Below, one piece after another: positions 993 to 56,142 of a DNA stretch of 64,000 nt. The DNA comes from Nitrospira sp. (lineage in GTDB: Bacteria; Nitrospirota; Nitrospiria; Nitrospirales; Nitrospiraceae): NCBI GenBank assembly GCA_029194665.1, contig JARFXO010000001.1:558001-622000 (forward strand). Reading direction: 5' to 3'. The translations under genes and the position numbers were made by a program. The first letter of the stretch is position 1. Each line of letters begins with the position of its first letter. The notes beneath the pieces are model-generated. The model did no database searches, was not told the origin of the DNA, and was given only the letters and a program-made list of their open reading frames with translations.

Positions 993-1017
993 CGAATTCT
1001 GGTCAGGAGGATTGCTC

Positions 1018-1521
1018 ATGGGACGGGATAGGGATCTCTTCAAGGCCATCCTGGTTCCAGTGGATTTCTCTCCCTGTTCGGATGAGGCATTCAGGGTTGC
1101 CTGTCAGGTCGCCCGGCTGAGCGGGGCGACGCTGCTCGTCCTGCACGTGATCGACACCAGCGCCCTTGCCGCGTTCAATCGGTTGGGTTTGCTGGCCGTT
1201 CCCTCCGATTCCGTGCTACAGCGCCGCCGCTTACGCCATCATGCCCGCTTAAAAGTGAGGCAATTGTTGGAGTCGAAAGTAGCCGCGGATGTGAAGATCA
1301 CACGCCTGATCGTGGAGGGGGCGCCCTTCGTCGAGATCGCCAAAATTGCACGCACCAAGAATATCGACCTGGTTGTGATGGGGAGCTACGGCGGACGGTC
1401 CGGCAGTGTGGACAAGATTTTCTTCGGAAGTACGGCGGAAAAAGTCGTTCGCACGGCGGGCTGCCCCGTGCTGACCGTGCCGTTTACCACCCCCGCATCA
1501 CAACACAAATCGACAGGCTAA
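1018..1521 (+). CDS. Universal stress protein (single UspA domain)
   Basis: This 167-residue protein has one UspA domain. It begins MGRDRDLFKAILVPVDFS and carries the nucleotide-binding signature MGSYGGRSGSVDKIFFGS, ending in the usual hydrophobic strand GCPVLTVP. The start at 1018 is chosen over an upstream in-frame ATG at 982 because AGGAGG lies 7 bases before it. A possible sigma-54 promoter at 977-992 would exclude the longer form. The gene is followed 66 bases later by a second stress-protein gene on the same strand. It is probably an ATP-binding cytosolic stress protein; its target is unknown. Confidence 0.88.
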   Translation: MGRDRDLFKAILVPVDFSPCSDEAFRVACQVARLSGATLLVLHVIDTSALAAFNRLGLLAVPSDSVLQRRRLRHHARLKVRQLLESKVAADVKITRLIVEGAPFVEIAKIARTKNIDLVVMGSYGGRSGSVDKIFFGSTAEKVVRTAGCPVLTVPFTTPASQHKSTG

Positions 1522-1587
1522 CAAACAGTATGCACAGACTGCGATGAGTGGAGAGGTACTTCTGTTGATGGCGGAGGCGGTGTAAAC

Positions 1588-2553
1588 GTGACAAGAGGGG
1601 GACTGAGAATTCTCCTTGCGACCGACGGATCGCCTGAATCGGCGGCAGCGGAAACCTATGTCTGTGGGCTGGCTCAGGCATGGGGAGCCTCCTTGACTGT
1701 GATGAGCGTGCTGGAATTTCCTCCTGGGATGGACCCCGACTACGCGGTGAATCGACTGTACCTGGATGAATTGATGAAAGAAGCCACGACGAAATTAACG
1801 GATCTCAAGGTGCGGGTGGTTGCGCTTGGCATTCCCGTACAATCGTATGTTGCAACTGGAATCCCGAGTGAGGAAGTGTCAGCCGCCGCGCGAAGCGAAG
1901 AGGCCGAATTGATTGTCGTCGGAACCAGAGGGAAGACCGGTCTCGAACACGTCTTGCTGGGAAGTACGGCTGAGCGAGTCATTCGAATGGCGCCCTGCCC
2001 AGTCCTCACCGTGCCGATGGTCAAACAACGGGCGGATGGAAGTTGGAGCAGCGAAAAACCGAACTGCCCACCGGAGCGAGTGCTGGTGCCGGTCGATTTT
2101 TCAGCTTGTGCACTCGATGCCCTGGAGTATGGGGCATTGGTTGCCCAACGATCACAGGCTTCCATCACACTTCTTCATGTACTGGAGCCGGTGTCGTACG
2201 GGTTAGATTTCACGCTCCCTCGGGTGACGAAGCGGGAACAGGTTCGAACAGAACTGACCAAGCGGCTGTCCAATCTCAGATCGGCGATCACCTCGGTCGG
2301 CATCCCGTCCGACTTCGTCAGTTCCGGTGGGCTGCCGGCCGATTCTATCCTCGATACGGCTCGATCCCGGTCTGTTGATTTGATTATAATGGGGACCCAT
2401 GGCCGCCGCGGCTTGTCGCACACACTATTCGGCAATGTCGCGGAATCAGTCCTGCGCAGATCATCATGCCCTGTTCTGACGGTCCGCAGTCCGAAGTTCC
2501 GCCCAGGCCATCGTCGTGTGTTTTCAAGCCAACTCATTCCAGCAAGCCATTAA
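1588..2553 (+). CDS. Universal stress protein, tandem UspA domains
   Basis: The 321-residue product is a fusion of two UspA domains. The first ends with VGTRGKTGLEHVLLGSTAE and the second with MGTHGRRGLSHTLFGNVAE. Both keep the G-x2-G-x9-G nucleotide loop, although the second has Asn where the first has Ser. The start is a GTG preceded by GGAGGCGG at 1573-1580. Tandem UspA proteins usually form intramolecular dimers; this is family knowledge. The gene sits in a same-strand run with the single-domain protein at 1018 and the PFK block downstream, so co-induction is plausible. Confidence 0.88.
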   Translation: MTRGGLRILLATDGSPESAAAETYVCGLAQAWGASLTVMSVLEFPPGMDPDYAVNRLYLDELMKEATTKLTDLKVRVVALGIPVQSYVATGIPSEEVSAAARSEEAELIVVGTRGKTGLEHVLLGSTAERVIRMAPCPVLTVPMVKQRADGSWSSEKPNCPPERVLVPVDFSACALDALEYGALVAQRSQASITLLHVLEPVSYGLDFTLPRVTKREQVRTELTKRLSNLRSAITSVGIPSDFVSSGGLPADSILDTARSRSVDLIIMGTHGRRGLSHTLFGNVAESVLRRSSCPVLTVRSPKFRPGHRRVFSSQLIPASH

Positions 2554-2567
2554 CCGAGGAACAAACC

Positions 2568-2792
2568 ATGCGAAGGACCACGAAGAAACCCGGCAACGTG
2601 AAGGCCAAAGCCTCTTCTGAACCTGGCACAGACCAGCGGACCATCGAATCGTCGGATGGAATGTGGGAACGGGTATCGCGGAAAGCGTACGAGCTCTGGG
2701 AACAGCGCGGTCGTCGCGAGGGCAGCGCGATTCGAGATTGGCTCGAGGCGGAAGAAATCGTCCTGGGAGAAATTCATGAAGCACGCGGGTGA
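2568..2792 (+). CDS. DUF2934-family small protein
   Basis: The 74-residue protein has a basic, disordered N-terminus and a C-terminal segment ERVSRKAYELWEQRGRREG followed by AIRDWLEAEE. This is the DUF2934 pattern (AYELWExRGRxxGxxxxDWxxAE). Function is unknown in the family. I prefer the ATG at 2568, with CCGAGGA upstream, over the longer in-frame start at 2466, which would overlap the stress-protein gene before it. The 3' end overlaps the next gene by 17 bases, so translation is probably coupled. Confidence 0.75.
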   Translation: MRRTTKKPGNVKAKASSEPGTDQRTIESSDGMWERVSRKAYELWEQRGRREGSAIRDWLEAEEIVLGEIHEARG

Positions 2793-4152
2793 ACAAGCGG
2801 CGGGATTCTGGACTCCGCGGCCTCTGTCCCTGGATGGAGTGCTCTCGCGCCTGGACAATCTTTCCCGTCAACCGGAATTCGGACTGCAACGTGAACTAGC
2901 ACAGGCACGAGCGCTCAAGCCCTATTTGGACGGCAACGCAGGACGGCTTGTTGCGCCGCTTGAGCAGGAAATAGAACTGGCAAATCTCTACCTGTTTTGC
3001 GACTACTACCCGGACGATGGACAGCTGACGCTCATCGAACAGCTGCGGGACGTTATCACCGAGCACATTCCCGAAGAGGAGCGGCAGTGGCTCGATCCCT
3101 TGAAGCATTCCTATCTCGATGTCCTGAAATCGACCTCGCCGCCAAAACCTGGCCAAGATCTGTTGCTGCAATCACTTGCCGATGGGAGGAGGCTGATCCT
3201 ACCCGGCGGCGATTTCGTCAAGGAACTTGCGGCGGACCGTCCGTTGCTTATCAGAGTCATCCATGATCCAAACGCCCAGGAGTCAGACAGGGCCGTATGG
3301 GCCGGTTGTGGAATCACCGTTTCACAAACCGATGCGGAGGCCTTGCTCGAGATCACGTCGGAATGGCGTCGAGAGATGGAGGTGACCACCGGATCCTTTG
3401 CGCTGGGAGAATGGAAGGAGTTTGCTAAGCGATTCGGCTACATGATTCTCTGGGCATTCGCGCAACGACGTATGGCTGCCTTGGCGGATGCCGTCGTCCA
3501 TATCGGATATCGCAATTCCGACGGCCAGCCCTATCTGTACGCGGTCGCTCTGTACGACCACCATGAACATCGATTCTTCACCGACGCCCTAGCTGAGATG
3601 AACGAATTTCATGTAGAAAGGCCGGCTTCGGAGGCCACGCAGAGCGTTGCGGGAGATCGGCTGTCTCCCCGACAATGGGTACAACAGGAAGACGGTAGGC
3701 TCGTTGCCCGACTCACGCTCACCGCCTTTCAACTGATCGCGGAATGTGACAGTCCGCAGCGGCTGAATCACATCAAGCATCGGCTCGCGGCCTCGTTGGG
3801 ATTTTCATTGCATTTCCGAGGCGAGACGTTGGTGCCGCCGGTTCGGCAACTATCGGTGGATGAACTCATGTCCGATGAACCTCCGACGTTGGTCGTAACA
3901 CGCGAAGAAGACCATCTGCTGCTCAACCAGTTCCTGGAGAAAGCGTACTTGGAGTGGTCGGATCAGCCGCATCTCGCGCTCAACGGCCAGACACCTCGGC
4001 ATGCGGCGGCAACGGCGACGTTGCGGCGCAGGGTCGGTGATCTGATCGATGACATGGAGCGGCATGATCCTGGCTGTCAGCGCGTTGGGAAACCGGCCTT
4101 CAGCTATAATCGTCTTCGCGCCCAGGTCGGTTTGGAAGAACTGCCGGAGTAA
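2776..4152 (+). CDS. Conserved protein of unknown function, 458 residues
   Basis: I do not recognise a named family over the full length. No signal peptide or membrane segment is seen, so it is probably cytosolic. The last 100 residues contain LNGQTPRHAAATATLRRRV, which resembles the W-x-P-x-LxGxTPrxAxxxxxxRxxV element found at the C-terminus of several SEC-C and antitoxin-like proteins. That is a similarity only. The start at 2776 is inside the DUF2934 frame and follows a GGGAGA stretch; an in-frame ATG at 2656 is possible but would overlap the preceding gene far more. It lies between stress genes and phosphofructokinase, suggesting a role in the same response. Confidence 0.7.
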   Translation: MKHAGEQAAGFWTPRPLSLDGVLSRLDNLSRQPEFGLQRELAQARALKPYLDGNAGRLVAPLEQEIELANLYLFCDYYPDDGQLTLIEQLRDVITEHIPEEERQWLDPLKHSYLDVLKSTSPPKPGQDLLLQSLADGRRLILPGGDFVKELAADRPLLIRVIHDPNAQESDRAVWAGCGITVSQTDAEALLEITSEWRREMEVTTGSFALGEWKEFAKRFGYMILWAFAQRRMAALADAVVHIGYRNSDGQPYLYAVALYDHHEHRFFTDALAEMNEFHVERPASEATQSVAGDRLSPRQWVQQEDGRLVARLTLTAFQLIAECDSPQRLNHIKHRLAASLGFSLHFRGETLVPPVRQLSVDELMSDEPPTLVVTREEDHLLLNQFLEKAYLEWSDQPHLALNGQTPRHAAATATLRRRVGDLIDDMERHDPGCQRVGKPAFSYNRLRAQVGLEELPE

Positions 4153-40921: not shown

Positions 40922-42028
40922 ATGTATCCACGCGAATTTCGTGACGGTGCAAAAGACGGATTGGAAGCGCTCGAACCGCTCGATCCCGACAAGATCACCT
41001 CGTTCAGCGATTTGCTTGAGGCCATGGGCAAAACAGCGTTCGGGGGACGGCATGTCGGCAAGGCGTTCGATGTGCTCGGGGCGATGATCGAAGACCCTGA
41101 CTGTCAGGTTGTGATGACGTTGTCCGGTGCGATGACGATCGCCAAGATGGGTAAGATTATTACGAGGATGATCGATGAAGGCATGGTGCAATGCATCGTT
41201 TCCACCGGGGCGTTGATGGCCCATGGTCTCAGTGAGTCGGTCGGCAAGACGCATTATCGACACGATCCTTCGATGAGCGACGAAGAACTCTTCAAGAAAG
41301 GGTACAATCGCGTCTACGACACGCTCGAGATGGAAGCGAATTTGAATTATGTGGAGCACGTTGTCGCGCACACCCTGAAGCGTCTCGATCATGATCGACC
41401 GCTTTCGTCGGAAGTCCTCACGAGAGAGCTGGGAAAAACGTTGGCGGAAGAAATAGACGGCGACGGAATCCTCAAGAGCGCCTACTTGAAGAAGGTACCG
41501 GTCTATATCCCGGCTTTCACTGATTCGGAAGTGGGACTGGACATGGGAACGTGGGCGATGGCCCGTGAGGTTGATCGAGCCCGATCGCAGGCAGGGCAGG
41601 GGAGAGATCTGGACATTTTACGAACCATCCATCAATCCTGTCCGTCATTCAATCCGTACCTCGATCTCAACAGCTATGCCGACCATGTCCTCTCCGCTAA
41701 ACGACTCGGAATTTTCACGATCGGAGGCGGGGTCCCACGGAACTGGGCGCAACAGGTCGGTCCGTATATTGAAATCGGTAATCTTCGGTTGGGCCTGAAC
41801 GTGAAGCCGCCTCGGTTTTACTATGGAGTCAGAATTTGCCCCGAACCGGACTACTGGGGGGGGCTCAGCGGCTGTACCTATCAAGAAGGATTGTCCTGGG
41901 GGAAATTCGTGACACCGAAGGATGGTGGGCGATTCGCCGAAGTATTGAGCGATGCGACGGTCGTCTGGCCTTTGTTGATGATGGGGCTTCTCGAAAAGAA
42001 GCGAGCAGGTGTGGGTCGCCGTTCATGA
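40922..42028 (+). CDS. Deoxyhypusine synthase-like protein (polyamine enzyme)
   Basis: The 368-residue protein belongs to the DHS/homospermidine synthase family. It has the N-terminal SGAMTIAKMGKIITRMID region, VSTGALMAHGL, FTIGGGVPRNWAQQ and the lysine-bearing YQEGLSWGKF near the C-terminus. The Lys is the catalytic residue in DHS. Bacteria have no hypusine-modified eIF5A, so homospermidine or another polyamine product is more likely; this is inference. Agmatinase and arginine decarboxylase genes lie 2.6-3.4 kb downstream. Confidence 0.85.
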   Translation: MYPREFRDGAKDGLEALEPLDPDKITSFSDLLEAMGKTAFGGRHVGKAFDVLGAMIEDPDCQVVMTLSGAMTIAKMGKIITRMIDEGMVQCIVSTGALMAHGLSESVGKTHYRHDPSMSDEELFKKGYNRVYDTLEMEANLNYVEHVVAHTLKRLDHDRPLSSEVLTRELGKTLAEEIDGDGILKSAYLKKVPVYIPAFTDSEVGLDMGTWAMAREVDRARSQAGQGRDLDILRTIHQSCPSFNPYLDLNSYADHVLSAKRLGIFTIGGGVPRNWAQQVGPYIEIGNLRLGLNVKPPRFYYGVRICPEPDYWGGLSGCTYQEGLSWGKFVTPKDGGRFAEVLSDATVVWPLLMMGLLEKKRAGVGRRS

Positions 42029-42666
42029 ACTGGACGACTGGACAACGGTGGGTTCAGGTGATGGTTTGCAGCGGCCTCCTATGGTCGTCGTCGGTATTCG
42101 GCGGGAATGCATCCGAAGCCGATGTCCGAATGCGAGGACAGGCCAATGCACCTCTGACCTTGATCGAATACTCCGATTTCACGTGCGGGTATTGCTTGAA
42201 ATTTTTCAAACGGACCTGGCCACGGATCCAGGCTCAGTACGTCGATACCGGGAAAGTGCGATTTGTTTACCGGGATTTTCCGCGTGGCGACCAAGGGGCT
42301 GGGCTGGATGCGGCGGTGGCGGCGCGATGTGCCGGTGCCCAAGGTCAGTATTGGGCAATGCATGATCGGTTGTTTTCCGAAGGGGGGCAACTCGACAAGC
42401 AGGTGTATCTACGACATGCCGCGGCATTGAACTTAGATCGACTCGCATTTGAACGTTGTATGAGCGACGGGCGGTATACGAAGCTGATTTTCGAGGATCG
42501 CCAGGAAGCCAACCAGTGGGGGTTTCACGGAACCCCTGGGTTCATCCTTGTACGGACGGCTGCCGAGCCGACGGAAAAAGAGCCGGCGGTTGCGATCCCT
42601 GGAGCATTTCCATTCGAGATGTTCGCAGAAGAAATCGATCGACTTCTGGCAAGCGACAAAAGATAG
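42025..42666 (+). CDS. DsbA-like thiol oxidoreductase
   Basis: The 213-residue protein has an N-terminal hydrophobic segment (about 10-27, VQVMVCSGLLWSSSVFGG), a signal or anchor. The thioredoxin active site is C54-G-Y-C57 in SDFTCGYCLKFF. The helical insert and GFHGTPGFILV (cis-Pro) follow the DsbA/DSBA-like thioredoxin_4 pattern. It probably oxidises or isomerises envelope proteins. The ATG overlaps the stop of the previous gene (ATGA). Confidence 0.85.
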   Translation: MNWTTGQRWVQVMVCSGLLWSSSVFGGNASEADVRMRGQANAPLTLIEYSDFTCGYCLKFFKRTWPRIQAQYVDTGKVRFVYRDFPRGDQGAGLDAAVAARCAGAQGQYWAMHDRLFSEGGQLDKQVYLRHAAALNLDRLAFERCMSDGRYTKLIFEDRQEANQWGFHGTPGFILVRTAAEPTEKEPAVAIPGAFPFEMFAEEIDRLLASDKR

Positions 42667-42764
42667 CAGAACTGCGCCGGAGCGGAGTGCGTCTTCGAGC
42701 TTCATGTTGACATCGGTACGCAGGTACGATAGTTTTTTTGTCTAATCTAAGGTAAGGTGTCCAT

Positions 42765-43037
42765 ATGGCTTCGATGCAATCCTTCTGGCCCGTCTCCCAT
42801 CGCGATGACGACTTCTGGGTCTGTATGTCGTGCCTCACGGAAGTCTTCTACAGAAAAGTCCCCATGCCGGACTGTCCGTCTTGTCACGGCGTGTCGACCT
42901 ACGAGGGCTTTACCTTGGAGGCGATCCGCGATTGGGGCACGGAAGAATTGATCGCCAAAGCCGTTGCCGCACAAGAAGCAGCCACGGTTGCTCAACCTGC
43001 CGTCGAAGCCGCCGCGTCGGTCGAAGCGGCGGACTAA
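42765..43037 (+). CDS. Small zinc-ribbon protein
   Basis: The 90-residue protein has CMSCLTEVFYRKVPMPDCPSC, two CxxC knuckles suited to zinc. A Glu/Ala-rich helix follows (LIAKAVAAQEAATVAQPAVE). It is otherwise unrecognised. It precedes the aldehyde dehydrogenase by about 35 bases and may be coupled. It is 98 bases after the DsbA-like gene. Confidence 0.6.
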   Translation: MASMQSFWPVSHRDDDFWVCMSCLTEVFYRKVPMPDCPSCHGVSTYEGFTLEAIRDWGTEELIAKAVAAQEAATVAQPAVEAAASVEAAD

Positions 43038-43072
43038 TACCAATCTCATCAGAGACTCCAGCGAGCCTTCCA

Positions 43073-44527
43073 GTGCAGGCATCACGTCCGTTCCTCGTTC
43101 ATGGCCAATGGAAATCAGGCGAACTCTCGGCCTCGGTCGTAGATCCGTTCACCGGGAAGCTCGTGGCTCAGGTTGCGCAAGCGACCGAGTCCGATGTCGA
43201 ACAGGCCATCGCGTCCGCCTTCGGTGCGTCTGCAACCATGGGGCAGCTTCCCGGACATGCTCGATACAATATGCTCCAACAGATCGCGGCGTTGCTCTAT
43301 CGACGTCGCGAGGAGGTTGCACAGAGCATCACAGCCGAGGCCGGTAAGCCGATCACCGATGCGAAGCGGGAAGTCAGCCGGGCCATCCAAACCTTCACGG
43401 TGGCCGCCGAAGAGGCACGGCGGATGCCGGGCGACGTGATACCACTTGATTGGACCCCCGGCTCTGATACGCACCTTGGCCTGCTTCGACGTTTTCCGAT
43501 CGGTCCGATTCTTGGCATCACGCCGTTCAACTTTCCGCTCAATCTCGTGGCGCACAAAGTAGCGCCGGCGCTCGCGTCCGGCAACCCGATTCTCATCAAA
43601 CCGGCCCCACAAACGCCCTTGACCGCCCTGCTCCTTGGAGAGATCGCCCTAGAGGCGGGAGTTCCTCCGGGCGGGCTCAATGTGGTGCCGTGCGATAACT
43701 TGCTTGCCGAGCGGATGGTGGTCGATCCACGTTTCAAATTGCTCAGTTTCACCGGAAGCGCGTCGGTGGGATGGATGTTGAAGGCCAAGTGTGGAAAGAA
43801 AAAAGTCACGCTCGAACTTGGGGGGAACGCCGGCGTGGTCATCGAACCCGATGCCGATCTTGAGCTTGTCGCCCAGCGTTGCGCCGTAGGTGGGTTTGGG
43901 TATGCCGGTCAGACCTGCATTTCGGTGCAGCGGGTGTTCGTTCACCATTCGGTCGCCGATGTGTTTACGACCAAGTTGCTGATGCATGTCGCTCGGCTGA
44001 AAATGGGAGATCCTGCCGATGAGACGACGAGCATCGGTCCCCTCATCGATCAGGCAGCCGCTCAGCGGGTGGAGAACTGGATCGGCGAAGCCGTCGCGGA
44101 CGGAGCGCGTGTGCTGTTGGGCGGGAAGCGGACGGGATCGCTTGTTGAGGCCACGGTGTTGTCGAATGTGAAGCCCGACATGAAGGTTTCCTGCAAGGAG
44201 GTGTTCGGGCCGGTTGTGACGGTCACGCCTTATCGGCAGCTCAGCGATGCCGTGGCGCTGCTCAATCAATCGGACTACGGATTGCAGGCGGGCATCTTCA
44301 CGCAGGACGTCAACAAGATCTTTTACGCCTTTCGCCACATGGAGGTCGGAGCCGTGTTGGCAAATGAGATTCCAACGTTCCGGGCCGACCATATGCCGTA
44401 CGGCGGCGTGAAAGATTCCGGGCTAGGACGGGAAGGCGTTCGTGCCGCGATGGAGGATATGACGGAGCCACGGATGCTCATCATGAATCTGAAAGACCCA
44501 TCTCACTTACCTGAAAAAAGTGTCTAG
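43073..44527 (+). CDS. NAD(P)-dependent aldehyde dehydrogenase
   Basis: The 484-residue enzyme has the catalytic Cys in [12 protein letters not shown], the base Glu in [12 protein letters not shown], and the coenzyme motifs [10 protein letters not shown] and FTGSASVGW. Substrate is undetermined; succinate-semialdehyde, glyceraldehyde-3-phosphate or aminoaldehydes are candidates. Its position between polyamine genes favours an aminoaldehyde from putrescine, by inference. The GTG at 43073 is the best available start but its ribosome site is weak, so the N-terminus is uncertain. Confidence 0.88.
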
Positions 44528-44682
44528 AAGATATTGCGAAGCCGGTCCAATCTTGCTACAACAGGCGCCCGATACGGTCATTGATTTTGCCCGATGTTTT
44601 GTCCAGCTGGCCGCCTTGGAACACGTCGCCAGATAACCTCCGAACAACCAAGCAGGTCGACTACCTGACGAAAGGGGAGACG

Positions 44683-45252
44683 ATGGTACCTACGCATATG
44701 TTTTTAACGAGAGGTGTGGGAGTCCACAAGGAAAAGCTGGCCTCCTTCGAAGAGGCGTTGCGCAGCGCCGGTGTGGCCTACTGCAATCTCGTCAGCGTAT
44801 CGTCCATCCTTCCTCCACATTGCAAGATCATCCCTCGGAAGCGCGGAGAGAAGCTGCTGAAACCGGGTGAAATCACGTTTTGCGTCATGGCGCGTTCGGA
44901 AACGAATGAACGGAACCGGCTCATCTCGGCGTCGGTCGGGCTTGCGAAGCCTACAGACCGGGGCACATACGGCTATCTCTCGGAACACCATGCCCATGGA
45001 GAAACAGATGAGGAGACCGGAGAGTATACGGAAGATCTCGCAGCGCAGATGCTTGCGACGACCCTGGGTGTCGAATTCGATCCGAACGTGGCCTGGAAAG
45101 AGCGCGAGCAGGTGTTTAAAATGGGTGGAAAAATCGTGAGAACCTTGAACATCACCCAATCGGCCGTCGGAAAAAAGGGTAAGTGGATCACGGTCATCGC
45201 ACTGGCGGTCTTCATCCCGCCGGAAAATGTGCCCACCCGTTCTCGCAAATAG
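44683..45252 (+). CDS. Pyruvoyl-dependent arginine decarboxylase
   Basis: The 189-residue proenzyme has the self-cleavage site in [13 protein letters not shown], where the serine pair at about 40-41 yields the pyruvoyl group. The beta-rich fold and [15 protein letters not shown] segment fit the PvlArgDC family. It makes agmatine from arginine, and agmatinase follows 66 bases downstream. The ATG at 44683 follows AAAGGGGAGA; an upstream TTG at 44581 is not supported. Confidence 0.9.
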
Positions 45253-45318
45253 GGACTTGCCGGTCTTGGCTGTCTTCATTCCGCCTCAGCCGTTGGCCCA
45301 GCCGAGGGAAGTACGCCC

Positions 45319-46248
45319 ATGACGCTTCCCGTCGGTTGGGAAGGACCGAATCACAATTTTTTGGGGATCGACGAACCCTGGTGCGACCCGGACCAGGCGG
45401 GTGTCTATGTGCTGCCGGTTCCCTACGAACACACTTCCAGCTATATCCGTGGGTCGGACCGTGGCCCCTCAGCCATCCTTGAAGCTTCCGCCCAGGTTGA
45501 ATTCTACGACGAGCAGCTCAGGTGTGAACCGTTTCGAGAATGGGGCGGAATCGCGACGGCTTCGCCGTTGGATCTCAAGGGAAATGTTGATCGCGCGGCA
45601 GTCGACGCGATCGAAACCTTCGTCTCACCGCACGTAGGAGCCGGACGGTTTGTGATTACGCTGACGGGCGAACACACTGGTGCCTTGGGAGCGATTCGAG
45701 CCCATGCGAAACGATACCGGCGGATGACCGTTGTGCAGATCGATGCTCACGGAGATCTCCGAGATGCCTATCAAGGGAATCCGTTCAGCCATGCCAGCGT
45801 CATGGCGCGGGTGGTGGAGGACGGCTTACCCTTGGTACAGGTGGGTATTCGGTCGATCAGCCAGGAAGAGGTGGCTCGCATCGAAGCCACGGCCAGCATC
45901 AAGACGTTTTTTGCCGCCGCCATTCTCGATCCAGCCGGCCCGTACGAAGGCAAAGCCTCGAACTGGATCCCTGATGTGGTTGCAGCCTGTCGAACGCCCG
46001 TGTACCTGACATTCGACTGCGATGGGCTGGATGCGTCGATCGTTCCCGCCTTGGGCACTCCCGAGCCAGGTGGGCTCGGCTGGTATGATACCCTCAATCT
46101 CATCACTGCCCTGGCCAACGGACCCGGTATCGTCGGCATGGATGTCAGCGAGATCACTCCCATCGAAGGATTCGTGGCGCCGCAGTTTTCCATCGCGCGG
46201 TTGATCTATCGTATACTGGGTCGCATCAAGGCCGGCCGTCGCGTCTAG
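45319..46248 (+). CDS. speB: Agmatinase / ureohydrolase
   Basis: The 309-residue ureohydrolase keeps the dimanganese ligands: GEHTGALG, QIDAHGDLRDAYQ and FDCDGLDAS, and SHASVMARV. TPEPGGLGW is typical of agmatinase. It hydrolyses agmatine to putrescine and urea. Together with the decarboxylase it gives the arginine to putrescine route. A pseudouridine synthase follows after 39 bases. Confidence 0.93.
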   Translation: MTLPVGWEGPNHNFLGIDEPWCDPDQAGVYVLPVPYEHTSSYIRGSDRGPSAILEASAQVEFYDEQLRCEPFREWGGIATASPLDLKGNVDRAAVDAIETFVSPHVGAGRFVITLTGEHTGALGAIRAHAKRYRRMTVVQIDAHGDLRDAYQGNPFSHASVMARVVEDGLPLVQVGIRSISQEEVARIEATASIKTFFAAAILDPAGPYEGKASNWIPDVVAACRTPVYLTFDCDGLDASIVPALGTPEPGGLGWYDTLNLITALANGPGIVGMDVSEITPIEGFVAPQFSIARLIYRILGRIKAGRRV

Positions 46249-47030: not shown

Positions 47031-47930
47031 TCAGCCAAGCAATTCTTGCCGGGCCGTCCGGACGAGAGCAAGGACGGCCGGGTGCTTCAGCCGTCGTTCC
47101 ACAGTGATTGCGTAGAAATGTTGTTTGACAACTTCCAGCTCTCCGACCACCTGCACCCGATATTGGCGGCAGATCTCCTTCTCGATCACCGATCCGCCAG
47201 GGAAGATCCCATATCCATCCTGGCCGAATGCCTTTAAGGTCGCACTGTCGTCGAACTCTCCGACGATGTTCGGATGCAGCCTCTGGTCGATCAGCCATTC
47301 ATCGAGCAGTCGACGGAGCGCGGCATTGGAAGTCGGGAGGAGCATGGGTGCTCCGCTTAACGACTGTGGAAACCCCCGACGATATTGTGCCGCCAGCTTG
47401 GCCGTCGCAAACAGCATCACACCCGATTCACCGAGGGGATGACTGTAGGTGAGCTCCTTGATGCTTGATGGGGCCGGAGTGTCGGCAATCACCAGATCCA
47501 ATCGATGGGCTGTCAGATCGGTCAAGAGTTGGTGAAGTTTGTCTTCCTGACAGATCAAGCGAGTCGGTCGAGACAGTTTCAGCGCCGACTTGAGCAGTCG
47601 GGTCGCCAGCGGTTTTGGGACAGCGTCCGCGATGCCGACAACCAGACGGGCAGGATGTCCATTCGCCTGCCCCTTGACCGATTTCATCAGCTCTTGACCG
47701 GTCGCGAAGATGTCCTCCGCGTATTTGAACACGAGCTGCCCCATCTCCGTCAGGGCCAGGCGGCGACCTGTTCGGATGAACAGCTTCTCGCCCAATGTAT
47801 TTTCCAAGAGGTGGATCTGTCCGCTGATCGTGGGCTGGGCCAAGCGAAGTTCCTCGCAGGCTTTCGTCATGGTGCCGTGCTTGGCGACGGACCAGAAATA
47901 CAAGAGATGATGATAGTTCAGCCAATCCAT
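47031..47930 (-). CDS. nhaR: LysR-family regulator, NhaR type
   Basis: The 299-residue protein has an N-terminal winged HTH, LNYHHLLYFWSVAKHGTMTK, CEELRLAQPTISGQIHLL, followed by a type-2 periplasmic-binding-like effector domain. The opening words match NhaR. NhaR regulates the NhaA antiporter and other envelope genes in known bacteria. Here it is divergent from three TolC-like genes, so it probably controls the export cluster. Start at 47930; a candidate LysR site lies at 47979-47993. Confidence 0.88.
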   Translation of the reverse strand: MDWLNYHHLLYFWSVAKHGTMTKACEELRLAQPTISGQIHLLENTLGEKLFIRTGRRLALTEMGQLVFKYAEDIFATGQELMKSVKGQANGHPARLVVGIADAVPKPLATRLLKSALKLSRPTRLICQEDKLHQLLTDLTAHRLDLVIADTPAPSSIKELTYSHPLGESGVMLFATAKLAAQYRRGFPQSLSGAPMLLPTSNAALRRLLDEWLIDQRLHPNIVGEFDDSATLKAFGQDGYGIFPGGSVIEKEICRQYRVQVVGELEVVKQHFYAITVERRLKHPAVLALVRTARQELLG

Positions 47931-48080: not shown

Positions 48081-48093
48081 AAGGAGCATCCTT
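48081..48093 (+). promoter_or_regulatory. Conserved ribosome-binding leader, copy 1
   Basis: AAGGAGCATCCTT lies directly before the first TolC-like start. The same 13 bases occur before each of the three tandem genes. The AGGA...TCCT arms could form a small hairpin that hides the ribosome site. Confidence 0.7.
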
Positions 48094-48095: not shown

Positions 48096-49649
48096 ATGAT
48101 CGCTCTGGTGTTGGCCATTGTGACTCTCCTGCCAATGACCGCACTGGCGGAACCGGTGATCGACTCGCGTGCGATGCAGGCTCTGTCGACCCGCACCGCT
48201 CCCCTGACCATCGATGAAGTGCTGGCTCGCATCGAGTTGACGCATCCGTTGCTTCGGGCGATGGGAGCCGAGCGAGCAAAGGCCCGGGCGAAGATCCTGA
48301 AGGCGCTCGGGGCCTGGGAACCGACGTTCAAGAACAGAATGCAGATGCAACGTTATCAAACGTGGAATCTCACGACGGCTCCCGACATACAGGACGGAGA
48401 AACGGCGGGATTTATCGACACCATTCTCGAGGTCGGGCATCCCTGGGGCTTCACGGTCAGTAGCGGACTCCGCAGCGGCGTCGGGAATCGCCGCAATGAC
48501 AACGTCATTTCTTTTCCCCCTGAGATGCTGGCCTTCTACCATAATCAGCACTTCTACTTCGCCGGGTCGTTCCATCTGCTGCGAGGCCTCATGGTCAATG
48601 AAGAGAACGCCCAGTTTCAACAGGCCGAGCTCGCGGGGCCGCAAGCGGAGATCAAGGTGGGGCAGAAGCGACAAGATCTCTACCTGGCCGGGGCCGTGCA
48701 GTACTGGGATTGGCAGGTCGCCGTCAAGCAGGCAGAGGTCGTGAAGCGCGCCTTGGCCGTTGCCGAAGAGCGCGTGGTCCAGGTCGAAGGGTTGGCCAAG
48801 GGCGGAAAGCTCGCGCCGCTCGATGTGATCGAGGTGGACCAAGAGGTTCAGCGTCGACGAGAGGCAGCCATCGCTGCCCAGCGGAAGGTGGAGTATGAGC
48901 AGTATAAACTGTCCCTCTTTCTCTGGGAGAACGGCGAGCCGGTGACGCCGCGACCGGAATGGGCGCCGGAATTCCAGGGCGAAACGCCGCTCCCAACCAA
49001 GGACCAGGTCGCGACCTATAAAGTCGAGGCGAAAGAAGATCGGCCGGAAGTGCGGGAGCTCTACATCGACGCCAAGCTGAACAATATCGACCTCAAGCTC
49101 GCCAAGAACAAACTGCTCCCGTCGTTGGATCTCGAAGGGGGACCGACCCCTGGCGCCGCGGACTGGATTGTGGGAATCGGGTATCGGGCTGGCCTCCATG
49201 CTGAGATGCCGCTGTTCCAGCGGGAAGGGCGTGGGAAGGTCATGGCCGCGGAGGTGCAACAGCAACAACTGGCGTTGAAACAGCGTTATGCAGAACAACA
49301 AGTCAGCTTGGACGTGGATAACTGGCTCTCGGCCCAAGTGCGGGCCAGAGACCGGGTGACGGCGGCGACGGAGGCCCTGCGGTTGGCCAAGACGCTGGAG
49401 GAGGGCGAACGGACTCGCTTCAATATGGGCTTGACCACCGTCCTCTTTGTGAACCTCCGTGAGCGCAACGTGGTGGAATTGGCGTACCAGCTGTACCGAG
49501 CCCAGGCAGACTATACGGTGTCCAAGGGAGGAATGCTGTGGGCGAGAGGGCTATTGTCGAAGCCCTGGCCGACCGAGTCCCTGGCGAAGTATGGAAATCC
49601 GCTGACGGCAGCTGGTATGAACGGCTTCAAACAGCCTGGCCGCGATTAA
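48096..49649 (+). CDS. TolC-like outer membrane factor, copy 1
   Basis: The 517-residue protein has a signal peptide (MIALVLAIVTLLPMTALAEP) and the long helical, Gln/Ala-rich architecture of TolC/OMF proteins, with two repeats. Segments such as DVIEVDQEVQRRREAAIAAQ and TRFNMGLTTVLFVNLRERNV are typical. It probably forms a trimeric channel across the outer membrane. Length is within the family norm. It is the first of three paralogues in tandem and lies divergent to nhaR. Confidence 0.88.
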   Translation: MIALVLAIVTLLPMTALAEPVIDSRAMQALSTRTAPLTIDEVLARIELTHPLLRAMGAERAKARAKILKALGAWEPTFKNRMQMQRYQTWNLTTAPDIQDGETAGFIDTILEVGHPWGFTVSSGLRSGVGNRRNDNVISFPPEMLAFYHNQHFYFAGSFHLLRGLMVNEENAQFQQAELAGPQAEIKVGQKRQDLYLAGAVQYWDWQVAVKQAEVVKRALAVAEERVVQVEGLAKGGKLAPLDVIEVDQEVQRRREAAIAAQRKVEYEQYKLSLFLWENGEPVTPRPEWAPEFQGETPLPTKDQVATYKVEAKEDRPEVRELYIDAKLNNIDLKLAKNKLLPSLDLEGGPTPGAADWIVGIGYRAGLHAEMPLFQREGRGKVMAAEVQQQQLALKQRYAEQQVSLDVDNWLSAQVRARDRVTAATEALRLAKTLEEGERTRFNMGLTTVLFVNLRERNVVELAYQLYRAQADYTVSKGGMLWARGLLSKPWPTESLAKYGNPLTAAGMNGFKQPGRD

Positions 49650-49660
49650 TCCGGCACAAC

Positions 49661-49673
49661 AAGGAGCATCCTT
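49661..49673 (+). promoter_or_regulatory. Conserved ribosome-binding leader, copy 2
   Basis: AAGGAGCATCCTT precedes the second TolC-like ATG by two bases, exactly as in copy 1. It lies 11 bases after the first gene's stop. Confidence 0.7.
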
Positions 49674-49675
49674 CG

Positions 49676-51220
49676 ATGGTCCCTCTATTACTCGTGATGC
49701 TGATCTTGCTTCCCGTGACGACAGGGGCGGAGCCGGTGCTCGATTCAAGTGCGTTGAAAGCGCAGTCCGCCCGCACCGCTCCCCTGACCATCAGTGAAGT
49801 GCTGGCTCGTATTGAGTTGACGCATCCGCTGCTTCGGGCGACCGGGGTTGAACGGATGCAGGCCAGGGCGAAGATCTTGAAGGCGCTCGGGGCCTGGGAA
49901 CCGACGTTCAAAAACACGACAGAGGCCGCTCGTTATCAGAGTTGGAATTTCCTGAGCACCCTGAATGAGAATACAGGAGGATTTAACGACAGCAAGCTCG
50001 AGGTCGGGCACCCCTGGGGCTTCCGGGTCGTCGGCGGAATCCGCAACGGCTTTGGGGATCTCAACACGATGGCCGTCCATGCGGTCATCCCTGATGCCCT
50101 GATGTTCTATCCTCAGCAGCAAGCGATCTTCGGTGGGTCGTTCCATCTGCTGCGAGGCCTCATGGTCAACGAGGAGAACGCCGAGTTTCAAAAGGCCGAA
50201 CTCGCCGGGCCGAAGGCGGAGATCGCGGTGGCGCAGGCAAGGCAAGACCTCTATCTCGCCGGCGCCGTCCAATATTGGGATTGGCAAGTGGCGGTGAAAC
50301 AGGCAGAAGTGCAGAAGCGGGTATTGGCCGTTGCGGAAGAACGCCTCATTCAGGTGCAAGGGCTGGCCAAAGGTGGGCAGGCGGCGCCGCTCGATGTGAT
50401 CGAGGTGAACAAAGAGGTTCAGGTTCGAAGAGAGGCAGCCATCGCCGCCCAGCGGAAGGTGGAGTATGAGCAGTATAAACTGTCCCTCTTTCTCTGGGAG
50501 AACGGCGAGCCGGTGACGCCGCGACCGGAATGGGCGCCGGAATTCCAGGGCGAAACGCCGCTCCCGACCAAGGACGAGGTCGCGGCCTATAAAGTCGAGG
50601 CGAAAGAAGATCGGCCGGAAGTGCGGGACCTCTACATCGACGCCAAGCTGAACAATATCGACCTCAAGCTCGCCAAGAACTACCTGCTCCCAAAGTTTGA
50701 TGTCGAGGGGGGACGAATGCTGGCGGCCGCGGACTGGGTTGTGGGAATCGGGTATGGGATCGAATCGCGGTTAGCGATGCCGCTGTTCCAGCGGGAAGGG
50801 CGTGGGAAGGTCCTGTACGCGGAAGCGGACCAGCAACAGTTGGTGTTGAAACAGGTGTATACCGAGCAACAAGTCAGCATCGACGTGGACAACTGGCTCT
50901 CGGCCCAAGTGCGGGCCAGAGACCGAGTGAAGGCGGCGACCGAAGCGCTGCGGTTGGCTAAGACGCTGGAGGAGGGCGAACGGACCCGCTTCAATATGGG
51001 CGCGACCACCGTGCTCTTCGTCAATGTGCGCGAGCGAAATGTCGTGAATACAGCCTACCAACTCTACCGGGCCCAGGCCGACTACGCCGTGGCGCGTGGA
51101 GGGATGCTCTGGGCGAGGGGACTATTGTCGAAGCCCTGGCCTGAAAGCGAGTTGGCCAAGTACGGGAACCCGCTGACGGCGGCGGGGATGCATGGGTACA
51201 AACAACCGGGACGTGAATAA
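49676..51220 (+). CDS. TolC-like outer membrane factor, copy 2
   Basis: The 514-residue protein has a signal peptide (MVPLLLVMLILLPVTTGAEP) and the same OMF layout as copy 1. From about 50430 to 50690 its DNA is almost identical to copy 1 (48860-49110), over the segment around VEYEQYKLSLFLWENGEP. The N-terminal third is clearly different. This suggests recent duplication or gene conversion. The ATG at 49676, with its leader, is preferred over upstream ATG codons in the first gene. Confidence 0.88.
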   Translation: MVPLLLVMLILLPVTTGAEPVLDSSALKAQSARTAPLTISEVLARIELTHPLLRATGVERMQARAKILKALGAWEPTFKNTTEAARYQSWNFLSTLNENTGGFNDSKLEVGHPWGFRVVGGIRNGFGDLNTMAVHAVIPDALMFYPQQQAIFGGSFHLLRGLMVNEENAEFQKAELAGPKAEIAVAQARQDLYLAGAVQYWDWQVAVKQAEVQKRVLAVAEERLIQVQGLAKGGQAAPLDVIEVNKEVQVRREAAIAAQRKVEYEQYKLSLFLWENGEPVTPRPEWAPEFQGETPLPTKDEVAAYKVEAKEDRPEVRDLYIDAKLNNIDLKLAKNYLLPKFDVEGGRMLAAADWVVGIGYGIESRLAMPLFQREGRGKVLYAEADQQQLVLKQVYTEQQVSIDVDNWLSAQVRARDRVKAATEALRLAKTLEEGERTRFNMGATTVLFVNVRERNVVNTAYQLYRAQADYAVARGGMLWARGLLSKPWPESELAKYGNPLTAAGMHGYKQPGRE

Positions 51221-51230
51221 TCCAGCAACA

Positions 51231-51243
51231 AAGGAGCATCCTT
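51231..51243 (+). promoter_or_regulatory. Conserved ribosome-binding leader, copy 3
   Basis: AAGGAGCATCCTT precedes the third gene, whose start is GTG at 51246. It is the third identical copy. Confidence 0.7.
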
Positions 51244-51245
51244 CC

Positions 51246-52838
51246 GTGATCCTTCTCTTGCTGTTCTCGTTGATGATTGTGCCGGCGACCGCAGTGGCGG
51301 AACCCCACGCGGTGAGCTCACCAAGCGCTGAGTCTGTGCGGACCGCCTCCCTGACCATTGAAGAGGTGTTTGCCCGGATTGAGTTGAACCATCCTCTGCT
51401 CCGCGCAACCGGACTGGAGCGGGCGCAGGCTCGGGCGAGACTCGTGAAAGCGTTGGGTGCATGGGAGCCGAAGGTTCGGAACGAGCTCGAGTACGACCGC
51501 TATCAAACGTATAATTTGACGAACGTGGCTGGTGCGCCGAATGTATTGAGTGCCGGCTATAACGATACCTTTCTCAAAGTCGCGCACCCTTGGGGCTGGG
51601 AGCTCTACGGCGGTCTCCGTAACGGCTTTGGGGATAGATCGACGATCGGTGGCTTCAACGGCATCCCACCACAACATGTGCCAGGCAGCCCCGGGGTGGC
51701 GATCCCTCAAGACATGCAAGGTTTCACGACGATGCAAGTGCTCATGATCGGCGGAGCGATTAATCTCATGCGGGGATTCATGGTCAACGAAGCGTACGCG
51801 GAGTTCCAGCAGGCGGAGCTCGCCGGGCCGCAAGCCGAGGTGAAGGTGGCCCAGAAACGGCAAGATCTCTATCTCGCCTCTGCCGTGCAATACTGGGATT
51901 GGCAGGTGGCTGTCAGACAGGCCGAGATGGTGAAGCGTGCGCTGGCCGTCGCGGAAGAACGCTATGGCATGGTGGAGGGGAAATCCAAAGCCGGGGCGGT
52001 CGCTCCGATCGACGTGGTCGAAGCCCGAGAGGAAGTTCAGCGGCGTCGAGAGGCTGCCATTGCCGCGCAACGGAAGGTCGAGTATGAACAATATAAGCTT
52101 GCGCTGTTTCTCTGGGAAAACGACGGACCGGTGACGCCGAGATCCGAATGGGCCCCGGAATTTCAGGGGGAAACGCCCTTGCCGAGTGAAGAGGATGTGG
52201 CGGCCTTCAAGGTGGCAGCAGCGGAGGATCGTCCGGAAGTGCGCGATCTTTACATTGAAGCCAAATTGAACAATATCGAACTGAAACTGGCGAAGAATAG
52301 TCTGCTCCCAAAGCTCACGATTGAGGGGGGGCCGGTGACGGGCGCTATCTATTGGATTGGAGGGTTCTCCTACCGGATGGGTGCTCTCCTCAGTATGCCG
52401 TTGTTCAATCGGGGTGCCAGAGGGAGGGTTCGTCACGCAGAAGCTGAACAGGAACGGTTGATCTGGAAACAAGCTTACACCGAGCGTCAGGTTCAGATCG
52501 AAGTCGATAACTGGCTTTCTGCAATCGTGCGAGCCCGGGATCGGGTGAAAGCCTCGACCGAATCACTCCGATTGGCCAAGACATTGGAAGAGGGTGAACG
52601 AGCCCGATTCAATATGGGAGCGACGAGTGTGCTGTTCGTCAACCTGCGCGAGCGCGCCGTCGTCCAAGCGGCCTATGAGCTCTACCGCGCTCAGGCGGAT
52701 TACGCCGTGGCTCGTGGAGGAATGCTGTGGGCCAGAGGGGCACTGTCAAGACCGTTGGCCGACGACGTGCTGGCTAAATACGGCAACCCCTTGTCTTCGT
52801 CCGGATCTGCTGGCCGCAAAATGCCGGGACGCGATTAG
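51246..52838 (+). CDS. TolC-like outer membrane factor, copy 3
   Basis: The 530-residue protein (GTG start) has a signal peptide MILLLLFSLMIVPATAVAEP and the OMF repeat architecture. It is more diverged than copies 1 and 2, with a longer segment near residues 100-160. Its C-terminus ARGALSRPLADDVLAKYGNP keeps the conserved family end. The three genes may make mixed or alternative channels. The ABC-type gene follows after 137 bases. Confidence 0.86.
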   Translation: MILLLLFSLMIVPATAVAEPHAVSSPSAESVRTASLTIEEVFARIELNHPLLRATGLERAQARARLVKALGAWEPKVRNELEYDRYQTYNLTNVAGAPNVLSAGYNDTFLKVAHPWGWELYGGLRNGFGDRSTIGGFNGIPPQHVPGSPGVAIPQDMQGFTTMQVLMIGGAINLMRGFMVNEAYAEFQQAELAGPQAEVKVAQKRQDLYLASAVQYWDWQVAVRQAEMVKRALAVAEERYGMVEGKSKAGAVAPIDVVEAREEVQRRREAAIAAQRKVEYEQYKLALFLWENDGPVTPRSEWAPEFQGETPLPSEEDVAAFKVAAAEDRPEVRDLYIEAKLNNIELKLAKNSLLPKLTIEGGPVTGAIYWIGGFSYRMGALLSMPLFNRGARGRVRHAEAEQERLIWKQAYTERQVQIEVDNWLSAIVRARDRVKASTESLRLAKTLEEGERARFNMGATSVLFVNLRERAVVQAAYELYRAQADYAVARGGMLWARGALSRPLADDVLAKYGNPLSSSGSAGRKMPGRD

Positions 52839-52975: not shown

Positions 52976-54652
52976 ATGAAAGAACCTCAGGGCGAAAGTT
53001 ATCAAGGCCTGTTCGAGGCGCTGATGAAGCAGCTGTCCGTGGCGATACGGGCTGAGAAAAAAATCATGAGTCTGATTTTTTCTTATGCCCTAGCCGTTGG
53101 GTTCTTTTCTCTTATCATCCCGTTGACCGTGCAGGAGTTGGTCAGCACCTTTTCCTACGCCGTTCAGCCGGTCATGATCTGGACCCTGACCGGCATTATG
53201 CTCTCAGTGCTGTTGTTTGTCGGCCTGTTCAAGACCTTTCATTTCTACGCGGTGGACGTCTTGCAACGCCGGCTCTTTGCAAGGGTCGCGGTCGCGATGG
53301 TTGAGCAGCTTCCTCGGAATCGATTTAAAGGGGCGCGGCAGGAGCTGTCGAACTACTTTATCGAAACGGTCTTTATGCAACGGGCCTTGTCCACCATGCT
53401 CATCGACCTGATGAACGTCGTGGTGGGTGGCTCGGTCGGCATGGTCGTGCTGATCGTCTACCATCCCTATTTTCTCGTGTACAACCTTCTGCTCATGGCC
53501 GGGTTCGGGATCACGTTTTTCGTGCTCTCTCGTGGTGCACTGAAGACGACGCTCGCCATGTCTCATGCGAAGTACGATGTCTTCAATTGGATCCAAGATG
53601 TTTCGCGGAATGCCTTGCAGCTGAAGGCCACCGACAGCCGCCCATTTCTCATCCAGAAAACGAATGACCTTGTCACCCAGTATGTCGAAACTCGAAAAGC
53701 CCGATTTGTTGTTCTCGTGCGGCAATATATTGGTTCGGTGACGGGCCAAGCAGTTGCACAATCTGGTGCGCTCGCCCTCTCAGCCTGGCTCATGGCATCG
53801 GGGCAGTTGACGCTAGGACAATTGGTGGCTGTTCAGGCGGTCGTCGGCGCACTCATTCTCAATTTCGATTCCCTCATCAAGAACATGGGCTATGTGTACT
53901 ATTTCTTTACGTCGCTGAAACACCTCGATGAGGTCTTTAGCCAAGAGCAAGATTACGTCGCACCCGAATCCGCAGTGGCACTGCCCAAGCATTTGACGCA
54001 AGGGGTCCGCATCACCTGCAAAAGCGTGAGTTTGATTCACGGGGGAGTGTCCGTATTCGATGGATTCAACCTGGAAGTAGCACCAGGCGAAAAGCTCGGT
54101 ATCTATGCGCGAACCACGGGAGCCAAAACTGCTTTGGCCAGAGTGTTGGGCGGCCTTGAAAATCCGACCAATGGTGTCGTTCAGTACAATGGCGTTGATC
54201 TTCGGTACATCGAACCTAATGCCATCAATCAGACCCGCAGTGTCATGATCGACTCTCAGTTGTCGCTGATCAAGGGAACGATAGAAGAAAATATCGTCAT
54301 GGGACGATCCTATGTCACCTATGATGACCTCAACTGGGCCCTCCGGTTCACCGAACTTGAGGAAGATGTCGAGGGCTTGCCACGTGGCGTGAAGTCCGAG
54401 ATCTCCTCGCTGGGAGAATCCCTTTCTCCGACCCACATTGTGCAGATTCTCCTGGCCAGGGCGATTCTAGGGCATCCGCAAGTTCTCATATTTGACGGCT
54501 TGATTCACTCGCTTGAGCCATCGTTGCGCGAGCGTGTGCTGCGTCGGCTCTGCTCGAAAGATGAAGCATGGTCTGTGATCTTTGTGTCGACGGATCCCAA
54601 TCTTACGGATCATGCCGATCGTCGCATTATGCTGCATCATGCCCATGCGTAA
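52976..54652 (+). CDS. ABC exporter-like protein with degenerate ATPase motifs
   Basis: The 558-residue protein has an N-terminal membrane domain (about six helices, for example FSYALAVGFFSLIIPLTVQE) and a C-terminal ABC domain. The domain is unusual. Walker A is ARTTGAKT (Lys kept, glycines lost). The signature LSGGQ is replaced by LSPTH. Walker B is VLIFDG, lacking the catalytic Glu, and the switch His is replaced in FVSTDPNLTDH. The overall layout is type I secretion-like. ATP hydrolysis is therefore doubtful. It may work as a scaffold or with another motor. The ATG at 52976 is preferred to GTG at 52970. Confidence 0.85.
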   Translation: MKEPQGESYQGLFEALMKQLSVAIRAEKKIMSLIFSYALAVGFFSLIIPLTVQELVSTFSYAVQPVMIWTLTGIMLSVLLFVGLFKTFHFYAVDVLQRRLFARVAVAMVEQLPRNRFKGARQELSNYFIETVFMQRALSTMLIDLMNVVVGGSVGMVVLIVYHPYFLVYNLLLMAGFGITFFVLSRGALKTTLAMSHAKYDVFNWIQDVSRNALQLKATDSRPFLIQKTNDLVTQYVETRKARFVVLVRQYIGSVTGQAVAQSGALALSAWLMASGQLTLGQLVAVQAVVGALILNFDSLIKNMGYVYYFFTSLKHLDEVFSQEQDYVAPESAVALPKHLTQGVRITCKSVSLIHGGVSVFDGFNLEVAPGEKLGIYARTTGAKTALARVLGGLENPTNGVVQYNGVDLRYIEPNAINQTRSVMIDSQLSLIKGTIEENIVMGRSYVTYDDLNWALRFTELEEDVEGLPRGVKSEISSLGESLSPTHIVQILLARAILGHPQVLIFDGLIHSLEPSLRERVLRRLCSKDEAWSVIFVSTDPNLTDHADRRIMLHHAHA

Positions 54653-54696
54653 ACGGGTGGAATGGTACAACAACACCGGTAATGAATGGAGGCTTC

Positions 54697-56142
54697 ATGG
54701 CTAGCCTAGGTGGCGGTGTCGAAGGCAGCGGGGAACGTGCGTTGGTCAAGCGAGGGGTGGGTTTGGAAGCGATCACCATCGAACAAGGCCCCACATTGGC
54801 CAAGTTGCCATGCTGGGAAGCGGTACAGATTCCAGGAGGAATGTTCACGGCATCTCGTGCAATTCTGACAATCCTCCTGCTTTTTTTGATCGTCCTTGAG
54901 TTCGTCCCATGGACACAGACCATCTCTGCGACTGGGAGAGTTTCTGCTTATACTCCCTACGACCGACCGCAGAAGATCGAGTCCCGGATTACGGGCCGTG
55001 TCAAGGCGTGGCATATTTTTGAAGGCGTGAAGGTGAAGAAAGGCGAGCTCATCGGCGAACTCGAGGACTATGACCCGACCTTTATGGCCCCTGAGATCCT
55101 TCCTCTCTTCGAACAGCGTAAGGTAGCCCAGGAACAAACGCGCCAAGCGGCCTTGGCGAGGGCGGATCAGCTCAACAAGAGAATTGCAGAGATGAAGAAG
55201 CTGGTGCAGGCCGCCGTCCCCTCGGCCGAGGCCAGAGTGGTGGAAGCTGACAACAAAGTGCGAGAGGCGCAACAGAAGGTCGAACAGCTAAAGATCGACG
55301 TGGTCACAGCGCAACTCAATGTCGACCGGCATCGGCAACTCGTCAGGGACGGGCTGGTTTCACAACGAGAACTTGAGTTAACAATTCAGACGGAAATCAG
55401 CACAAAAGCAGGATTGCAAGCAGCACAGGCCGGTTTGTTGGCGGCTGAGCAGTCTCGGTCTGCCTTAAGCTTCGGACGTGATCAAGTCACGGCGGATGTG
55501 CATCAACGACTCATGGAGGCCATCGCACAGCGCGATAATGCGGTCGCGGAAGCTGCCAAAGCGACGGAGGCGTTGGCGGATATTCAGTACCGGCAACAGG
55601 GGGTCCAACAACGGATCGAGGCGGCCCGTCTCATCGCTCCGATGGACGGAACCGTGGTCAAAATGGCTAGGGTCGGTGTCAACGAGACTGTCAGACAGGG
55701 AGACAATTTGGTCACTATTTCTCCTCTCGCCAGCGATCCAGCCATCGAAATGGTAGCCGAAGGGTTGGATTCTCCGCTTTTGAAACCTGGACGGAAGGTT
55801 CGAATCTTGTTTTTTGGGGTGCCGGCCATCCCATTGCCTGCCTGGCCTTCATTGATGGCGGGCACTCGTGGGGGGGTCATCAAGGTGGTTGACCAGATCG
55901 ACGATGGAAAGGGAAATTATCGGTTCTGGGTCGTTCCTGACCCGGATGATCCTCAACCATGGCCTGAGCAGACTCAGGTGAGGCAGGGCACAAAAGTATT
56001 GGGTTGGGTGATAATGCATCGCGTCCCTCTGTGGTACGAACTGTGGCGGCGCTTTAACTTCTTCCCGCCGGACTATCTTGAGCGGTCTCCGAGTGTCTTT
56101 GAGATGTTTGCGCCCAAGCTGGCGGCTCCGGGCGGTAAATAG
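54697..56142 (+). CDS. HlyD-family membrane fusion (adaptor) protein
   Basis: The 481-residue protein has a cytoplasmic N-terminus and one membrane segment (about residues 50-72, ILTILLLFLIVLEFVPW). The lipoyl-like and hairpin parts follow, with EQLKIDVVTAQLNVDRHRQL in the coiled coil and RLIAPMDGTVVKMARVGVNE as the second half-motif. It would bridge the ABC protein to a TolC channel. The start is the ATG at 54697 after GGAGG, with short spacing; 54682 is also possible. It starts 44 bases after the ABC gene. Confidence 0.88.
   Translation: MASLGGGVEGSGERALVKRGVGLEAITIEQGPTLAKLPCWEAVQIPGGMFTASRAILTILLLFLIVLEFVPWTQTISATGRVSAYTPYDRPQKIESRITGRVKAWHIFEGVKVKKGELIGELEDYDPTFMAPEILPLFEQRKVAQEQTRQAALARADQLNKRIAEMKKLVQAAVPSAEARVVEADNKVREAQQKVEQLKIDVVTAQLNVDRHRQLVRDGLVSQRELELTIQTEISTKAGLQAAQAGLLAAEQSRSALSFGRDQVTADVHQRLMEAIAQRDNAVAEAAKATEALADIQYRQQGVQQRIEAARLIAPMDGTVVKMARVGVNETVRQGDNLVTISPLASDPAIEMVAEGLDSPLLKPGRKVRILFFGVPAIPLPAWPSLMAGTRGGVIKVVDQIDDGKGNYRFWVVPDPDDPQPWPEQTQVRQGTKVLGWVIMHRVPLWYELWRRFNFFPPDYLERSPSVFEMFAPKLAAPGGK

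Follow-up and report, generated by a model that had tools for sequence, protein, structure and literature searches.

Alternative outer membrane factors (OMFs) serving one pump have a precedent in MexY, which uses OprA or OprM depending on the substrate (PMC8277102), and known exporters with a degenerate ABC site pair it with a canonical one (PMC7756269). We compared such systems with an operon in a window of 64,000 nucleotides (positions 558,001 to 622,000 of contig JARFXO010000001.1, Nitrospira sp.). Its OMFs resemble the TolC family (E. coli TolC, OprM, and CmeC) in Pfam OEP domains, in the two-repeat helix-strand-helix order, and in structural similarity (Z 27–28), but differ in sequence (13–17% identity only), in a modelled first repeat with four strands instead of two, and in forming three tandem copies within one operon. 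With type I secretion (HlyB-HlyD-TolC and PrtDEF) the operon shares an ABC fold near HlyB and PrtD, and an HlyD-type adaptor and OMF in the same operon; however, canonical Walker A, signature, Walker B Glu, and H-loop His are missing here, the adaptor reaches 53 vs. 208 bits for TIGR01843, there are three OMFs, and no adjacent secreted-cargo gene was seen among the ORFs inspected. The one-degenerate-site ABC exporters (TAP, TmrAB, and Pdr5) show the same joint loss of Walker B Glu and H-loop His (PMC7756269), but their second, canonical site hydrolyses ATP, whereas a homodimer here would have none. The individual parts belong to known fold families and what is new is a variation in their arrangement, the conserved, motif-degenerate ABC partner being a more surprising feature than the triple. 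In the collection of papers searched, nothing relevant turned up on comammox TolC or on gene conversion among tandem TolC genes. In window coordinates, the locus consists of:

47031..47930, minus strand: LysR regulator of the NhaR type, divergently oriented to the operon (NCBIfam NF008284, NhaR)
48081..48093, plus strand: leader AAGGAGCATCCTT of OMF copy 1, Shine-Dalgarno and spacer (exact match; kept before many orthologs)
48096..49649, plus strand: OMF copy 1, TolC family, 517 aa (PF02321, 85.7 bits), an orthologous lineage in the barrel-segment tree
48860..49109, plus strand: gene-conversion tract, 98% DNA identity to copy 2, with further evidence across genomes
49661..49673, plus strand: Shine-Dalgarno leader of OMF copy 2 (exact match)
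49676..51220, plus strand: OMF copy 2, 514 aa (PF02321, 80.6 bits), with a TolC-like model
51231..51243, plus strand: Shine-Dalgarno leader of OMF copy 3 (exact match)
51246..52838, plus strand: OMF copy 3, 530 aa, GTG start (PF02321, 114.3 bits), hardly converting
52976..54652, plus strand: half-transporter of the ABC exporter type, its nucleotide-binding motifs degenerate (PF00005, 37 bits)
54682..56142, plus strand: HlyD-type periplasmic adaptor (PF13437, 27.3 bits vs. cut-off 22.2)

The OMF genes lie head to tail, separated by 26 and 25 bases, and are followed after 137 bases by the ABC gene and then by the HlyD adaptor, whose orthologs align over 486 residues and whose start was inferred from relatives (a longer ORF opens at 54568, within the ABC gene). 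All three OMFs are intact ORFs exceeding the Pfam OEP (PF02321) cut-off of 22 bits, in agreement with the initial annotation, which had described three consecutive full-length OMF genes behind an identical leader. It had also given each a signal peptide; hydrophobic segments with an A-x-A-like end are present, but the n-regions contain no Lys or Arg, and the peptides are best called putative. The leader, AAGGAGCATCCTT, was found exactly three times in the window, each time 2 bases 5′ of an OMF start and with none expected by chance, and slightly altered versions precede most OMF orthologs. Its make-up, AAGGAG plus spacer, is that of an ordinary Shine-Dalgarno, so a special regulatory role was rejected; it is inherited along with the duplication unit. 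Promoter and terminator scans gave signals no commoner than chance.

The regulator scored 239.3 bits for NF008284, above the equivalog cut-off of 219, and holds the same divergent position in triple-OMF loci; in a different family of this order, it stands next to the HlyD-OMF-ABC locus as well (L182 and L187). Judged by its E. coli namesake only, the regulator may place the operon under the control of sodium, pH, or osmotic state. Neighbouring ORFs in the 40–60 kb region look biosynthetic or housekeeping by inspection, and a cargo gene could be elsewhere. At 40922–46248 there are genes that by inspection encode a deoxyhypusine/homospermidine-synthase-like protein, an aldehyde dehydrogenase, a pyruvoyl arginine decarboxylase, and an agmatinase; this polyamine-like set adjoins the exporter locus across Nitrospiraceae.

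Whether the triple is conserved across Nitrospira, a question raised with the initial annotation, was answered from 35 loci on contigs that cover everything between the divergent NhaR-type regulator and the ABC gene. Exactly three full-length OMFs in fixed order were present at 31 of them; the four exceptions had about four copies with fragments (L072), a rearranged or broken locus (L075), or two copies (L099 and L103), and some of the two- or four-copy loci (L099, L103, and L072) come from fragmentary MAGs. Several consecutive OMF matches occur in most of the 79 genus genomes, and in dozens of species the triple lies between an RluB-like gene and purE. Relatives outside the clade have a single OMF (L108, L110, L171, L173–L177, and L180–L189); they comprise N. 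moscoviensis, LacPavin, and loci from other genera and from a different family, and most single-OMF loci within the family occupy the same RluB-like/purE site on the opposite strand in the order HlyD-OMF-ABC. The N. moscoviensis locus (L110, Nitrospiraceae) has homologous ABC, HlyD, and OMF genes and non-canonical catalytic motifs too, but only one OMF and an operon inverted at the same site; Bacteroidetes ABC-HlyD-OMF loci (L114–L124) are likewise homologous in all three components, with one OMF and non-canonical motifs. A protein tree unites all copies of the triple in one clade that has a long stem and is separate from the single OMFs, so the duplications arose on that branch. The next OMF matches in the window genome after the triple reach only E = 4e-4, and there is no other close relative. 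In some genomes, a second, single-OMF-type pseudo-ABC/HlyD/LysR cluster exists besides the triple, at L091 (positions 1–4000), where it directly adjoins the triple, and at L171. In genome G001, a solitary copy-2-like OMF (L172, 6057–7679) lies just upstream of an operon that encodes a double-NBD ABC ATPase, an ABC-2 permease, an HlyD-like protein, and an OMF of its own; it looks like an OMF copy that has moved to a different efflux operon.

The structure of copy 2 was predicted with AlphaFold as a monomer from a 47-sequence alignment (mean pLDDT 81.4, pTM 0.70, barrel pLDDT 63–87). A profile search of the OMFs against PDB sequences gave no match, but the fold search does recover TolC (Foldseek E = 2e-16; VIA: Z = 28.1 and rmsd 4.5 Å over 381 residues to 7ng8, Z = 27.5 to 1ek9). 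Strands 77–90, 96–111, 117–127, 148–157, 340–347, and 360–367 of the model make up the predicted outer-membrane part, and helices 166–232/238–270 and 373–440/446–481 the periplasmic hairpins, whose turns, by analogy with TolC, would be the adaptor-facing tips. The four strands of repeat 1 fall within residues 77–157 and two belong to repeat 2, giving six strands per modelled protomer where TolC has four; the barrel would then be larger or carry an additional external hairpin.

Within genomes, copies 1 and 2 share an amino acid identity of about 0.3–0.67 in strands and most loops (0.22 in one 5-residue loop; turn 112–116 is almost invariant) and of 0.80–0.93 in helices and tips. External loop 2 spans 19–21 residues in copy 1, 20–34 in copy 2, and 26–36 in copy 3. 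The tips keep an invariant core in the alignment (G234, P238, D240, E243, and G442); copy 3 diverges at tip 1 (45–50% identity among the window copies), where G234, P238, D240, and E243 are still invariant. On the model, the differences between copies would thus fall mostly in the β-barrel and external loops, remote from the adaptor. The strong N-terminal difference between copies 1 and 2 that had been noted is accurate for residues 77–157, which together with 340–367 are the most divergent, but not for helix 1 (39–76), which is 87% identical. The proposal that N-terminal differences select adaptors is not supported, as these differences map to the predicted barrel and external loops and the adaptor-side tips keep their core.

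Copies 1 and 2 had been described as nearly identical over about 250 bases, and they are (98% DNA identity at 48860–49109). Segment trees were built for 25 representative genomes. For the N-terminal and first-barrel segment, three clean clades were resolved, one per position, with two label changes (the minimum); the mid-segment tree had 15, with copies 1 and 2 intermixed and copy 3 nearly separate. As single clades in the mid segment, copies 1 and 2 were rejected (p-AU = 1.7e-8 and 2e-51, respectively), and copy 3 was not (P = 0.57). Third-position identity between copies 1 and 2 was higher within genomes than between orthologs of different genomes at residues ~206–330, and at or below that of orthologs in the N-terminal part and at residues ~341–400. 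The excess over permuted genomes was clear in H2/H3 (0.700 vs. 0.579, 0/2000) and in the equatorial segment (0.758 vs. 0.662, 0/2000), and only +0.03 in the barrel. In the periplasmic segment it amounted to 0.10–0.12 for copies 1 and 2 vs. ~0.00–0.02 for the control pairs 1–3 and 2–3, and on these control pairs genome-wide codon bias was rejected as the cause of the signal. The gene conversion test suggested at the outset is thus positive by trees, p-AU values, and permutations: conversion has recurred between copies 1 and 2, largely confined to the periplasmic part, and copy 3 is hardly homogenised with them in that segment. The channel is TolC-like with a natural split of function, one end homogenised between paralogs by conversion and the other free to diverge. 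Ortholog dN/dS was highest in the first barrel segment (0.35–0.60) and 0.06–0.20 in most helix segments; this indicates weaker barrel constraint, and values <1 throughout do not demonstrate selection for diversity. Since conversion requires sequence similarity, the diverged barrels may also escape it passively.

We propose, at about even odds, that the triplicated OMFs are alternative outer exits of one conduit, with a shared docking end and a diversified surface end. An ancestral one-OMF HlyD-OMF-ABC exporter would have been reorganised in one Nitrospira clade, its OMF gene duplicated twice in tandem and the three copies then retained. All three would dock via a similar helical tip onto the one HlyD adaptor; their differences would lie at the surface of the cell and in the lining of the pore, and the cell could vary the exposed receptor or exit with the export line still functioning; the inner-membrane ABC fold would act as a pseudo-ATPase gate or scaffold, or together with an additional partner. 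Exposed OMF loops are plausible targets of diversification because OMFs are known to serve phages as receptors and to act in adhesion (PMC8277102) and because colicin E1 hijacks TolC (PMC9020818).

The gene conversion that holds the periplasmic part alike would also fit a dosage effect, with three copies providing more OMF per adaptor and barrel divergence being relaxed drift of a tolerant region; so would the dN/dS below 1 and the fast variation that is usual in OMF surface segments. We nevertheless regard dosage as unlikely: the three barrel lineages stay separate in every genome, their order is fixed, and loop lengths are copy-specific, for example in external loop 2. Pairing of the copies with different inner-membrane complexes, i.e., selection of adaptor or cargo, is improbable, given that the copies diverge mainly towards the outer membrane, that copies 1 and 2 are 80–90% identical at both tips, and that the genome has one adaptor of this type, although MexY with OprA or OprM is a precedent (PMC8277102) and the copy-2-like OMF of G001 adjoins another tripartite pump. 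Copy 3, which differs in tip 1, may discriminate between adaptors. An obligate mixed trimer, in which each gene contributes one protomer to a heterotrimeric channel, would account for exactly three genes at 31 of 35 loci and for periplasmic packing surfaces that are alike between copies. We consider it quite improbable, as loci with two (L099 and L103) and about four copies (L072) exist, some of them in fragmentary MAGs, a solitary copy-2 relative stands beside another exporter in G001, and our literature search gave heterotrimers for RND pumps such as MdtBC and none for OMFs. A recent assembly or lineage accident, which the initial annotation had held out as a caveat, is barely credible and was rejected, because although MAG assemblies can mis-join repeats and a few loci have two or four copies, the triple is carried by single-contig genomes such as G001 (L170) and G063, for which assembly error is not the explanation, the barrel-segment tree contains three old orthologous lineages, and the locus survey finds the same RluB-like/purE site in dozens of species.

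One exporter had been assumed at first, and the window genome indeed has a single matching HlyD adaptor and a single ABC gene of this type. The adaptor scored 53.4 bits for TIGR01843, far under the cut-off of 208.65, and passed PF13437. The ABC model resembles HlyB, TmrB, PCAT1, and PrtD with modest confidence (pLDDT 71.7), and no peptidase domain was detected in this protein. Its Walker A is ARTTGAKT (canonical GxxGxGK[ST]) and its signature LSPTH (LSGGQ), FDG replaces the Walker B DE, and VSTDP occupies the position of the H-loop His. This pattern departs from the canonical ATPase motifs and is conserved across Nitrospira and in single-OMF relatives: among the Nitrospirota ABCs of the family that were read, all have Gly for the Walker B Glu and a replaced H-loop His, and most retain the Walker A lysine, which is missing in L182 and L187 (another family). 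The distant Bacteroidetes homologs keep Walker A, have Asp for Glu, and lack the H-loop His.

Within Nitrospira, dN/dS of the ABC gene was 0.057 in the NBD vs. 0.120 in the membrane part, and the H-loop stretch had zero amino acid changes. The NBD is under stronger purifying selection than the membrane part; the motif loss is therefore not decay. We infer from the motifs that ATP hydrolysis has been lost, and the degenerate ABC is probably a pseudo-ATPase gate or scaffold, or works with another partner. A canonical ABC partner next door was rejected, the second adjacent ABC of a related genus also being degenerate (L177 and L180). Two adjacent degenerate ABC half-transporters follow a single OMF in related genera (L177, L180, and L188). 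In the collection of papers searched, nothing relevant turned up on a pseudo-ATPase ABC with HlyD. More tentatively, the order as a whole may possess an envelope-spanning tripartite conduit whose ABC no longer hydrolyses ATP in the canonical way and serves as a pseudo-enzyme gate or draws on another energy source; in one Nitrospira clade it would have acquired three outer exits, with a docking end homogenised by conversion and a surface end that has diversified. The locus exposes an ABC exporter family that has an adaptor and an outer channel, no canonical ATPase site, and a strongly conserved NBD, and makes the function of a tripartite exporter without the standard ABC motor directly testable.

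The lineage of the triple includes many ammonia-oxidising Nitrospira. A strict link between the triple and ammonia oxidation was rejected, since the AMO pattern tracks the clade and MAGs lose amo contigs. By tally, AMO matches were found in ~43 of the 57 genus genomes with the ABC ortholog vs. 6 of the 22 without it, which is suggestive of AMO being commoner in the former; the triple, too, is more frequent among members of the genus that have AMO. The window genome itself has an AMO gene (PF02461; G000:C1:888606-889313) and is probably a complete ammonia oxidiser.
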